From Lutibaculum baratangense AMV1 (GTDB lineage Bacteria; Pseudomonadota; Alphaproteobacteria; Rhizobiales; Tepidamorphaceae), in NCBI RefSeq assembly GCF_000496075.1, contig NZ_AWXZ01000017.1, positions 62,001 through 126,000 of the forward strand: 64,000 nt of DNA. The letters are read 5' to 3'. The translations under genes were made by a program, and so were the position numbers. Every line of letters begins with the position of its first letter. Position 1 is the stretch's first letter. Positions 48,448 to 61,862 of the stretch are shown here, piece after piece. The notes beneath the pieces were generated by a model. It was not told the DNA's origin, did no database searches, and saw only the letters and a list, made by a program, of their open reading frames with translations.

Positions 48448-48548
48448 GGGTTGCCTCCGAAAACAACGGAACTCTGCCATTGTGCGGCGGTTCCAAACTT
48501 ACACCATGCCACTGGCGCGGGACGCGGGGAATCGGCTGGCCGTGGCTA

Positions 48549-59214: not shown

Positions 59215-60434
59215 CGGCCATCCTGTTCGAGAACGCGAACCTCCTCGACGTCGAGGCGGGCGAGATCCTGCCCGACCGGCAGGTTCTGGTGCGCGAGGGA
59301 CGCATTGCGGAGATCTCCGAGGGCCGGATCGCGGGCGGCGAGAGGACGATCGACCTCAGGGGCAAGACGCTGATGCCGGGCCTGATCGACGCCCATGTCC
59401 ACGTCACCGCCATCAGCGCGAACTTCGCCGAGCTCGCCCGCACCTCGCCCTTCTACGTCTCGGCCAAGGCGGGCGAGATCATGAACGGGATGCTCAGGCG
59501 CGGCTTCACGAGCGTGCGCGACGTCGGCGGCGCCGACCACGGCCTCGCCCGCGCGGTGGAGGAAGGGCTCCTGAAGGCGCCGCGGCTCTTCTACTGCGGC
59601 AAGGCGCTGTCGCCCACGGGCGGCCACGGCGACGTGCGGGGACCGGGCGTCGAGGGCTACGAGACGCCCTACGCGCAGCCGGGCCTCGGCTGGATCGTCG
59701 ACGGGGTGCCGGAGGTGCGGCGTGCGGCGCGCGGCGAGATCCGCCGCGGCGCCCACCACATCAAGATCATGGGCGGCGGCGGCATCTCCTCGCCGACCGA
59801 CCGCATCTCGTCCGACCAGTTCTCGGAGGAGGAGATCGCCGCGGTCGTGGAGGAGGCGAACATGGCGAATCTCTACGTCGCCGTGCACGCCTATGCCGCC
59901 CGCTCGATCGAGCGCTGCGTCCGGCTCGGCGTCCGCTCGATCGAGCACGGCAACCTCGCCACCGACGAGACGATACGGCTGATGAAGAAGCACGACGCCT
60001 ATCTCGTGCCGACGCTCGCGATCTTCCGCGCGCTGGTCGAGGAGGGGGTGAAGGCCGGCCTGCCGGAAGAGCTCGTCGGCAAGACCTACGAGGTGCTGGA
60101 CGCCGGCATCAACGCGGTGGAGATGGCCTACAAGGCGGGGGTGCCGATGGCCTACGGCACCGATTTGCTCGGCGTCATGCACCGGCGGCAGCTGACCGAA
60201 TTCTCGCTGCGCAAGGACGTGATTCCGCCGGTCGACCTCGTCCGCGCCGCGACGATCAACGGCGCGAGGCTCCTGCGCCGGGAGACCGAGCTCGGCCTCG
60301 TGTCGGCCGGCTACCTCGCGGACCTGATCGTCGTCGACGGCAACCCGCTCGACGACATCGGCGTCATGGAGGACCCGGAGCGCTCGCCGAAGCTCGTCAT
60401 GAAGGCCGGCGAGGTTCTGGTCGACAACCTCTGA
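59211..60434 (+). CDS. Metal-dependent amidohydrolase (imidazolonepropionase/prolidase-like)
   Basis: The 407-residue amidohydrolase-superfamily enzyme has HVHVTA for the HxH metals and HHIKIMGGGGISSPTDR with the Lys expected to be carbamylated. Further motifs are AVHAYAARSIERCVRLGVRSIEHG and AYGTDLLGV with the catalytic Asp. It matches the Xaa-Pro dipeptidase/imidazolonepropionase-like group. It should cleave the amide released or imported by the hyu-TRAP system. ATGA overlap with the GAF gene. Confidence 0.9.
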   Translation: MTAILFENANLLDVEAGEILPDRQVLVREGRIAEISEGRIAGGERTIDLRGKTLMPGLIDAHVHVTAISANFAELARTSPFYVSAKAGEIMNGMLRRGFTSVRDVGGADHGLARAVEEGLLKAPRLFYCGKALSPTGGHGDVRGPGVEGYETPYAQPGLGWIVDGVPEVRRAARGEIRRGAHHIKIMGGGGISSPTDRISSDQFSEEEIAAVVEEANMANLYVAVHAYAARSIERCVRLGVRSIEHGNLATDETIRLMKKHDAYLVPTLAIFRALVEEGVKAGLPEELVGKTYEVLDAGINAVEMAYKAGVPMAYGTDLLGVMHRRQLTEFSLRKDVIPPVDLVRAATINGARLLRRETELGLVSAGYLADLIVVDGNPLDDIGVMEDPERSPKLVMKAGEVLVDNL

Positions 60435-60438
60435 GGGG

Positions 60439-60813
60439 TCAGAGGCTCTCCTCGACCGGCGAGGAGAGCCCATACTCGCAGGCGACGCCGTTGCCGTTGC
60501 GGTCGTGCCTGTCCCAGTAGCCCGGCTCGCCGCGGAGCGCCGGGGCGAGCCGCACCATGCGCGCGCGTTCGCAGCTCGGCGCCGCGACGATGTGGCGGAC
60601 AGTCACTCCGGGTGGCCAGGGGCTGGAGGCGAAGCCCACGCCCACCGCGACCAGCAATGCCGCGGCGCAGCCGCTCGCGATCAGGAGACGGCGGCGGCGG
60701 CGCTGCCTGGCCCGTCCCTGCAGAACCCGCGCGACGCGGGCGGCCTGTCGCCGGATCCGCTCGGTGTCGGCCTGCGCGCCGGCCGCAATCCCCTCGTGCT
60801 CGATGGATGACAT
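60439..60813 (-). CDS. Single-pass membrane protein with Excalibur domain
   Basis: The 124-residue protein has a basic cytoplasmic region, one membrane helix (LLIASGCAAALLVAVGVGFA), and an exported C-terminal Excalibur calcium-binding domain ending YWDRHDRNGNGVACE. The DxDxDG-like loop appears as DRNGNG. ATG 60813 has AAGGAGAG seven bases upstream. It is convergent with the amidohydrolase. Role unknown, possibly surface or cell-wall linked. Confidence 0.8.
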   Translation of the reverse strand: MSSIEHEGIAAGAQADTERIRRQAARVARVLQGRARQRRRRRLLIASGCAAALLVAVGVGFASSPWPPGVTVRHIVAAPSCERARMVRLAPALRGEPGYWDRHDRNGNGVACEYGLSSPVEESL

Positions 60814-60987
60814 GACACACTCTCCTTCCGAGGAAGAGTGTAGGCTCTGTCGTGCTGAGCTCTGATTGCAGCCTTTCCTCGAATGCGAGAAGGCGCATCA
60901 ATCGAATGTTAGGGAACGGCGGGCAGCGCTCGAAGATGTGTGCCTGCGGCGGCGGAGCCGGCAAACCCGGCCCCGCCAGCCGGTCCG

Positions 60988-61095
60988 TCAGAAGCCGTCG
61001 TCTCCGAGATCGTCGAAGAAGCCGCCCTCGTCCGCCGCCTCTTCCTCGGCGAGGCCTTCATCAGCCGGGGCTGCCTCGGCCTCTCCAGCGAACAT
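60988..61095 (-). CDS. Possible 35-residue acidic peptide downstream of the truncated sigma gene
   Basis: A short frame encodes MFAGEAEAAPADEGLAEEEA then ADEGGFFDDLGDDGF. It overlaps the end of the sigma-factor frame in another phase. The acidic, Phe/Asp-rich end looks like the genuine C-terminal tail of a larger protein rather than random DNA. It may be the debris of a deletion fusing two genes. No clear ribosome site. The other bases in 60814-61060 show no gene. Confidence 0.3.
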   Translation of the reverse strand: MFAGEAEAAPADEGLAEEEAADEGGFFDDLGDDGF

Positions 61096-61390
61096 GCTCC
61101 TGCTCGGGATCGGCATGGGCCGGCGCACCCATCATGGCCCGCTCGTCGCGGGTCGCGCGCGACGCCGCCGCCCGGCGGCCGTCGACGAAGACGTTGTGCA
61201 GGATCGAGAAGAGCCACGTCCTGAGATTGCGGCGCTCGTCGTAACTCGACCGCCTCTCGTAGGCGCGCACCAGCGCGTCGTGGACGAGGTCCTCGGCGTC
61301 CTCGTCGTTCCGCGTCAGGGCGCGCGCGTAGCGCCGCAGGCTCGGCAGCTCGCCCAGGACATCCGGTCGTGGAGGCGTGTCGCGTCTCAT
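61061..61390 (-). pseudogene. ECF sigma factor truncated after region 2
   Basis: The 109-residue frame has a clear sigma-70 region 2 (LRRYARALTRNDEDAEDLVHDALVRAYERR, then RTWLFSILHNVFVDGRR). It then ends with RWRGRGSPG. Full ECF factors need about 60 more residues for region 4, which recognises the -35 element; none of the three minus-strand frames downstream encodes it. The product could still bind core polymerase but not a promoter normally. Start ATG 61390; upstream a weak GGAAT-N17-CGTA resembles a stress promoter. Confidence 0.7.
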
Positions 61391-61454
61391 GCCCCATATA
61401 CGGAACAGACGCGGGATCTATTCCACCCGCCGCTTCATTCGAGAGCCGCGGGCG

Positions 61455-61479
61455 GGAACGCCCGACCTGTCTCCCCGTT
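61455..61479 (+). promoter_or_regulatory. EcfG-type general stress response promoter
   Basis: GGAAC (61455-61459), 16 bases, then CGTT (61476-61479) is a perfect match to the sigma-EcfG/RpoE2 consensus of alphaproteobacteria. It lies about 60 bases before the ATG of the 28-residue peptide. Confidence 0.7.
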
Positions 61480-61536
61480 GTCGAACCGCCGGGCGAAACG
61501 GCAGCCATCCATCATATGGGCAGGGAGAGAGCGGAC

Positions 61537-61623
61537 ATGTTGAAGTTCATCGGTGGAACGGTCGGAGTGATCTTCCTGATCGGGCTCCTGGTCGTCATCG
61601 GCCTGTTGGCGCTGATCTTCTGA
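61537..61623 (+). CDS. 28-residue hydrophobic membrane peptide
   Basis: The peptide MLKFIGGTVGVIFLIGLLVV then IGLLALIF is one membrane-spanning helix with a single Lys near the N-terminus. ATG 61537 is preceded by GGGAGAGAGCGG, a usable ribosome site. The EcfG-type promoter upstream argues that it is a real, stress-induced gene. The longer in-frame reading from 61369 passes through the promoter and is unlikely. Confidence 0.55.
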   Translation: MLKFIGGTVGVIFLIGLLVVIGLLALIF

Positions 61624-61768
61624 GCGGCGGGCGCCTTGGGCGGCCGTCACGCCGCCGGCGCCTGCCCCACTGATCCCTCCCCGCCGGGAGGCGACCACCT
61701 CTCATGTCGGGTCGTGTGCGGCCTGCCGCAACGATGGCGATGAGCGAACGGCTATCGCGGGAGAGGAA

Positions 61769-61844
<76 letters not shown>

Positions 61845-61862
61845 ATCCCTGAGTGAGACGCG

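Follow-up and report, generated by a model that had tools for sequence, protein, structure and literature searches.

A YohP-family membrane peptide gene behind an EcfG-type promoter motif in Lutibaculum baratangense

Genes and features at the locus

In the window, i.e., the whole 64 kb stretch of Lutibaculum baratangense DNA analysed here, an ATG at position 61537 of the forward strand starts a hydrophobic frame, MLKFIGGTVGVIFLIGLLVVIGLLALIF, which ends at 61623. The frame is free-standing and, with 28 codons followed by a stop, has the length of a YohP-family peptide (27–28 residues). A purine-rich putative ribosome-binding site, GGGAGAGAG, was read from the sequence before the ATG (61523–61531). 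Behind the gene a hairpin is predicted (z −2.12) with no run of T bases following it, and therefore an intrinsic terminator is not claimed. Upstream, on the same strand, 61455–61479 exactly matches the EcfG-type promoter motif GGAAC-N16-CGTT, with the −35 element GGAAC at 61455–61459 and the −10 element CGTT at 61476–61479; the distance from the motif to the gene is 82 nt. An earlier note on this DNA had placed an EcfG-type promoter at 61455 in front of a 28-residue membrane peptide. Both parts of this claim stand: the motif is exact and is the sole exact match on either strand of the window, and the hydrophobic ORF behind it is a conserved gene (see below).

A truncated ECF sigma factor gene lies on the reverse strand at 61061–61390 and comprises region 2 only, as it matched solely PF04542 and PF22029, and NF009164 over positions 6–99 of 182. 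Three relatives with 53–57% identity have open frames of 183, 205, and 196 residues, and the sigma ORF aligns only to their first parts (residues 1–99, 28–123, and 20–115); the homology to these longer proteins stops at window positions 61091–61094. A remnant of region 4 was not found, and matches to the later part of the protein in 60400–61500 were short, with E above 1. None of the three relatives, which are the closest to this sigma ORF, has a yohP ORF in the sequence before it (at most 700 bp). From these alignments, the sigma gene looks decayed and its adjacency to yohP incidental. Thus, the sigma gene noted earlier beside the peptide is indeed broken, its region 4 being gone, but the proximity itself looks incidental, with relatives having no yohP ORF nearby. 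Before the truncated gene, between 61390 and 61455 on the reverse strand, GGAAT-N17-CGTATA can be read by eye, and a longer relative (L026) seems alike at the same place; this is possibly an autoregulatory ECF promoter which has outlived the loss of region 4.

On the other side of yohP, ARAGORN predicts a tRNA-Ala (CGC) on the reverse strand (61769–61844), which forms the border between the yohP flank and a conserved block that continues with yggT (from 61982). The tRNA-Ala(CGC)-yggT pair is kept in 7/7 family relatives. The same flank as that of yohP holds, at 60439–60813 on the reverse strand, the gene of a small protein with a hydrophobic segment (judged by eye) and a C-terminal Excalibur calcium-binding domain (PF05901). 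Beyond the tRNA, neither yohP nor the sigma gene nor the Excalibur protein was found in six of the relatives, whose contigs continue for at least about 890 bp, while the contig of the seventh (L124) stops 23 bp past the tRNA. Since yohP and the sigma gene are both missing there in the six relatives, they belong to a tRNA flank which the relatives do not share, and this suggests that the tRNA-Ala(CGC) flank is an insertion hot spot. An island anchored at the tRNA and bounded by a repeat of its end was considered and rejected, as the window contains the tRNA end only once and 60800–61860 no direct repeat.

The peptide is a conserved member of the YohP family

Residues 2–28 matched the Pfam family PF25659 (“Membrane protein YohP”) with 45.7 bits (cut-off 27, E 5.8e-12), and the alignment spans the whole model (1–28 of 28). 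In the genome search, the whole 28-codon frame scored 45.1 bits; E. coli YohP reaches 50.6 bits. Five scrambled window peptides of identical composition gave no YohP match, so the hit is not a matter of mere hydrophobic composition. The NCBIfam model NF011345, which describes the enterobacterial YohP equivalog, gave 17.3 bits and thus stayed under its cut-off of 58. As PF25659 was passed and NF011345 failed, the window peptide belongs to the wider YohP family and not to the enterobacterial equivalog. The micropeptide is therefore not undescribed, as had been proposed, because it falls in a Pfam family whose E. coli member has already been studied (PMC7549839; PMC12719787). We regard it as a further member of this known family, for which the EcfG-type regulatory assignment is apparently unreported.

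Homologous loci were collected by a profile scan of a species-genome collection using the peptide and leaving the promoter unused. This yielded 101 confirmed loci, of which 80 were kept: 43 alphaproteobacterial and 37 gammaproteobacterial, with the class taken from the record title (L035, L065, L068, and L113 being metagenome bins titled as gammaproteobacterial groups). A pooled alphaproteobacterial set of 53 was formed from the 43, ten loci from genome searches, and the window, minus one duplicate (L055, equal to L016), which stays among the 43. The genomes G194 (L014/L022) and G446 (L017/L021) contain yohP twice, and these copies were counted as separate loci. In L073 and L078, the first aligned codon is no start codon and the true start probably lies some codons further upstream; both were kept in the counts.

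In 17 chosen pairings of the window gene with alphaproteobacterial homologs, synonymous differences (pS 0.41–0.71) far exceeded non-synonymous ones (pN 0.03–0.15), and purifying selection acts on the protein sequence of the window peptide. The homolog of Propylenella binzhouense is an identical peptide despite about 18 nucleotide differences; the non-synonymous fraction of 0.05 obtained for this pair is an artefact of path averaging. A stop codon stands at position 29 in 53/53 alphaproteobacterial loci, and 41/53 have a Shine-Dalgarno-like word at most 20 nt from the gene. The two helix glycines of the window peptide, G16 and G22, recur in 53/53 and 52/53 alphaproteobacterial peptides, respectively, and both in 37/37 gammaproteobacterial ones. 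The earlier note had made its reading depend on conservation of the peptide, and conserved as a protein it is.

The distribution of the family is patchy. With the window’s own genome counted in both, PF25659 was found in 2/101 relatives and 8/385 genomes of the class, among 14 control genomes in E. coli alone, and nowhere in the genomes of seven relatives from the same family. Searching 61 genomes for sequences similar to the 28 residues gave matches in 12 at E up to 1; apart from the gene itself, none was better than E 0.08. Among these others, a 59% match in genome G021 ranked first and was the only one upheld by the family model among 101 genomes.

The promoter motif recurs before yohP genes of alphaproteobacteria

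GGAAC-N16/17-CGTT was found within 110 bp before the gene in 17/43 alphaproteobacterial vs. 0/37 gammaproteobacterial loci, with 0.08 expected for the former from the motif density elsewhere in the same loci. Of 360 combinations obtained by permuting the boxes, the real motif came first with its 17 loci, followed by CGGAA with CGTT at 6, and the mean was 0.10. The spacer is equally specific: N16 occurred 13 times and N17 four times, N10–N15 and N18–N22 never, and N23 once. The motif of Sphingomonas melonis ends in GTT (GGAAC-N17-20-GTT; PMC6599016) and flexibility of the −10 box is reported for Sphingopyxis (PMC7083833), so that leaving the first −10 base free is reasonable. In the pooled set including the window, the CGTT form is present in 20 loci, the NGTT form in 33, and GGAAC at roughly 40–110 nt upstream in 36. 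Excluding the window, the numbers are 19/52 (CGTT) and 32/52 (NGTT, 49–104 nt ahead of the gene), compared with 0/37 gammaproteobacterial loci for both forms. The search for homologs behind GGAAC-N16-CGTT in related genomes, which the earlier note had proposed, turned out positive with a spacer of 16 or 17, and the motif recurs in the class and is absent from the gammaproteobacterial loci.

GGAAC also tops all 5-mers by enrichment in the 110 bp before the gene (38/53 loci vs. 5.6 expected), the p-value of about 8e-26 assuming independent loci, which they are not. Paracoccus alone contributes 14 of the 43 loci and has the NGTT form in 14/14, hence locus counts are not independent; outside Paracoccus, 12/29 loci have the NGTT form and 10/29 the CGTT form.

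Three loci, those of Propylenella (L057), Marivita (L080), and Salipiger (L105), have a csbD match whose end lies 8–14 bases ahead of yohP. Here it is csbD that the motif precedes, at 234–243 nt from yohP, with the −10 form CGTT in the first two and GGTT in Salipiger. The upstream protein in Propylenella is a CsbD protein of PF05532. In Sphingopyxis, csbD is a direct target of EcfG and the general stress response (PMC7083833). In the three loci, csbD and yohP probably form an operon behind one EcfG-type promoter. With them, 35/52 loci are tied to an EcfG-type motif. The other 17/52 have no motif at the gene or before csbD and include Rhizobium albus, Pararhizobium, three Azospirillum, Chthonobacter, and Microvirga. 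Locus L021 has a weak csbD match upstream as well, and no motif.

The host genome encodes the general stress switch

The genome of L. baratangense encodes EcfG (regions 2 and 4), NepR, PhyR (sigma-like and receiver domains), and a HWE kinase in one locus (C23:86000–90500). Between nepR-ecfG and phyR, GGAAC-N16/17-CGTT occurs at C23:87912–87937 on the reverse and at 87992–88016 on the forward strand. The motif in the window is the same as the EcfG promoter of Sphingopyxis granuli, GGAAC-N16-CGTT (PMC7083833). Together with the 35/52 homologs tied to the motif, csbD-linked ones included, the presence of PhyR, NepR, and EcfG bears out the earlier reading of a general stress promoter before a micropeptide.

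Among yohP-carrying genomes, NepR was detected at E up to 0.001 in 24/26 alphaproteobacterial vs. 0/6 gammaproteobacterial ones, in a set derived from 34 hand-chosen of the 80 loci and with one of the 24 matches under the family cut-off. Within the alphaproteobacteria, 17/18 genomes with the motif and 7/8 without it have NepR, which consequently does not separate motif-bearing from motif-less loci. The one motif-bearing genome in which NepR gave no match is that of Geminicoccus flavidas.

No report of a link between YohP and EcfG was found in the literature searched, nor was a small membrane protein in the alphaproteobacterial general stress response; most subscription papers lie outside this literature, so that a report elsewhere is possible. 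The name YohP does not occur in the Sphingopyxis granuli paper (PMC7083833), but the unnamed hypothetical targets in this paper and in that on Sphingomonas melonis (PMC6599016) could include YohP.

A proposed role and its alternatives

We consider it likely that 61455–61623 is a one-gene stress unit, i.e., a YohP-family peptide driven by EcfG. From the promoter motif, its recurrence, the family membership, the protein conservation, and the general stress locus, all computed here, we infer the following course of transcription, translation, membrane insertion, dimer formation, and physiological effect. In a stressed cell, EcfG would be freed from NepR through the HWE kinase and PhyR. RNA polymerase carrying EcfG would then start near 61486, and a short leader would precede the 28-residue peptide. 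The latter would insert as a single transmembrane helix and probably pair via the conserved glycine 16, the equivalent of glycine 15 in E. coli YohP. Acting as E. coli YohP does, it would mildly lower the membrane potential, stiffen the membrane, and bring about a protected, metabolically quiet state. An E. coli-like role under EcfG would be the most economical reading, but for the window peptide we put a lowering of the membrane potential at slightly below an even chance, judging by analogy.

In E. coli, the amount of YohP increases in stationary phase and in minimal medium, and cells producing it early show a decreased membrane potential, more cardiolipin, induced (p)ppGpp, and slower growth (PMC12719787). 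Cells without YohP are more sensitive to ciprofloxacin and oxidative stress and have no growth phenotype under YohP-inducing conditions; the same study mentions homologs outside the gammaproteobacteria (PMC12719787). Gly15 is required for dimer formation (PMC7549839). A single helix of 27–28 residues and the core IFLIGLLVVxG are common to the E. coli protein, as read from the MG1655 gene, and the window peptide, glycines 15 and 21 of the former being 16 and 22 of the latter. The genomic place differs, yohP of E. coli lying between mdtQ and dusC.

A variant of the last step, which does not exclude the preceding ones, is that the EcfG promoter and the YohP family are correct but the function differs, e.g., by stabilizing or regulating a partner membrane protein. 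We regard this as a serious possibility, though not the favored one. The E. coli helix has a lysine on each side and no GxxxG (PMC7549839); unlike it, the window peptide has no C-terminal lysine, just 4/53 alphaproteobacterial peptides carry K or R within the last six residues, and 49/53 contain G6-xxx-G10. Due to these differences, orientation and packing may differ from E. coli YohP, and the orientation of the alphaproteobacterial peptides may be reversed. For the window peptide, whose sole lysine is at position 3, the positive-inside rule predicts an N-in topology, contrary to the orientation that predominates in E. coli. Further, the effects described for E. coli came from premature expression of YohP (PMC12719787). 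On the other hand, the core is highly conserved, glycines 16 and 22 are kept almost without exception, and a stress-sigma promoter is common to both systems, which speaks for an E. coli-like function.

A merely coincidental motif in the window, with yohP transcribed from another promoter or silent, is improbable. The exact motif is expected 0.18 times per shuffled window and occurred at least once in 17/100 shuffles, hence the lone site in 64 kb is by itself merely suggestive. With the first −10 base free (GGAAC-N15-18-NGTT), the window holds three matches vs. 2.66 expected, two of which overlap on opposite strands (48468–48494). Matches are scattered over the whole genome as well (115 for GGAAC-N15-18-CGTT vs. 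56 for a reversed-pattern control), and the gene sits by a tRNA in a flank not shared with the family relatives, beside a decayed sigma gene. Against all this stands the position of the motif 82 nt before the gene, in agreement with the 49–104 nt at which GGAAC-N16/17-NGTT precedes its homologs in 32/52 vs. 0/37 loci. Thus, it is the comparative test and not the single site which places the putative promoter beyond chance.

A functional module made up of yohP and the truncated sigma gene, e.g., with the region 2 fragment regulating the peptide, would fit two adjacent, divergent genes with a common intergenic region, but is very unlikely and was rejected, as the three closest sigma relatives have no neighboring yohP ORF and at three other loci the gene ahead of yohP is csbD.

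yohP possibly behind different stress sigma factors

Upstream of the E. coli yohP gene stands CTATACTT, which we take to be a −10 element of the sigma-S type. In Salmonella, YohP is almost absent without rpoS, i.e., it is sigma-S dependent (PMC5437024). Expression under stress or in stationary phase is a trait of E. coli YohP and its Salmonella orthologue, and the gene in the window would share it, though behind an EcfG-type instead of a sigma-S promoter.

In Pseudomonadaceae, GAAC-N18/19-TCNNA, which equals GAACNN-N16/17-TCNNA, precedes yohP in 27/27 loci vs. 0/43 alphaproteobacterial ones. The Pseudomonadaceae species are closely related and the 27 therefore not independent evidence; one of these loci (L082) aligns poorly and may be a chance match. 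The best of 71 permuted controls reached 12/27 with an overlapping permutation, and the next 3. The motif lies about 55 nt before yohP (e.g., L040, L047, L048, L071). It resembles the AlgU consensus GAACTT-N16/17-TCtgA (PMC10651043) but the second TT of the −35 element is mostly replaced by GA or GT. Judged by its motif, yohP of Pseudomonadaceae may belong to the AlgU regulon, and would then stand, like its alphaproteobacterial counterpart, behind an ECF-sigma-like motif, albeit of a different sigma factor.

Sigma-S in Salmonella and the AlgU-like and EcfG-type motifs taken together, YohP seems to be tied, in each host, to that host's own stress sigma factor. Tentatively, YohP could be a transferable stress effector that has come time and again under the control of whichever sigma factor leads the stress response of the host, namely sigma-S in enterobacteria, an ECF factor of the AlgU type in Pseudomonadaceae, and EcfG in alphaproteobacteria, either alone or in a csbD-yohP operon; we think this somewhat less probable than its opposite. 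If true, YohP would be among the few effectors common to unrelated general stress responses, and membrane de-energization a common output of them. YohP also offers an example of one small effector that may be under the control of stress sigma factors unrelated to each other.

Several EcfG-dependent genes of alphaproteobacteria are listed only as hypothetical proteins (PMC6599016). Should one of these targets be a YohP peptide, the mechanism known from E. coli, mild de-energization and metabolic silencing, becomes directly testable as an output of the alphaproteobacterial response, and such a test would need one small gene with an identified promoter. As a minor observation, GGAAC-N17-CGTT also occurs beside ecfG itself (C23:86690–86715, reverse strand), by the gene of a small DUF3309 membrane protein (positions 498–755 of the locus C23:86000–90500, reverse strand), which is another candidate for a stress micropeptide.
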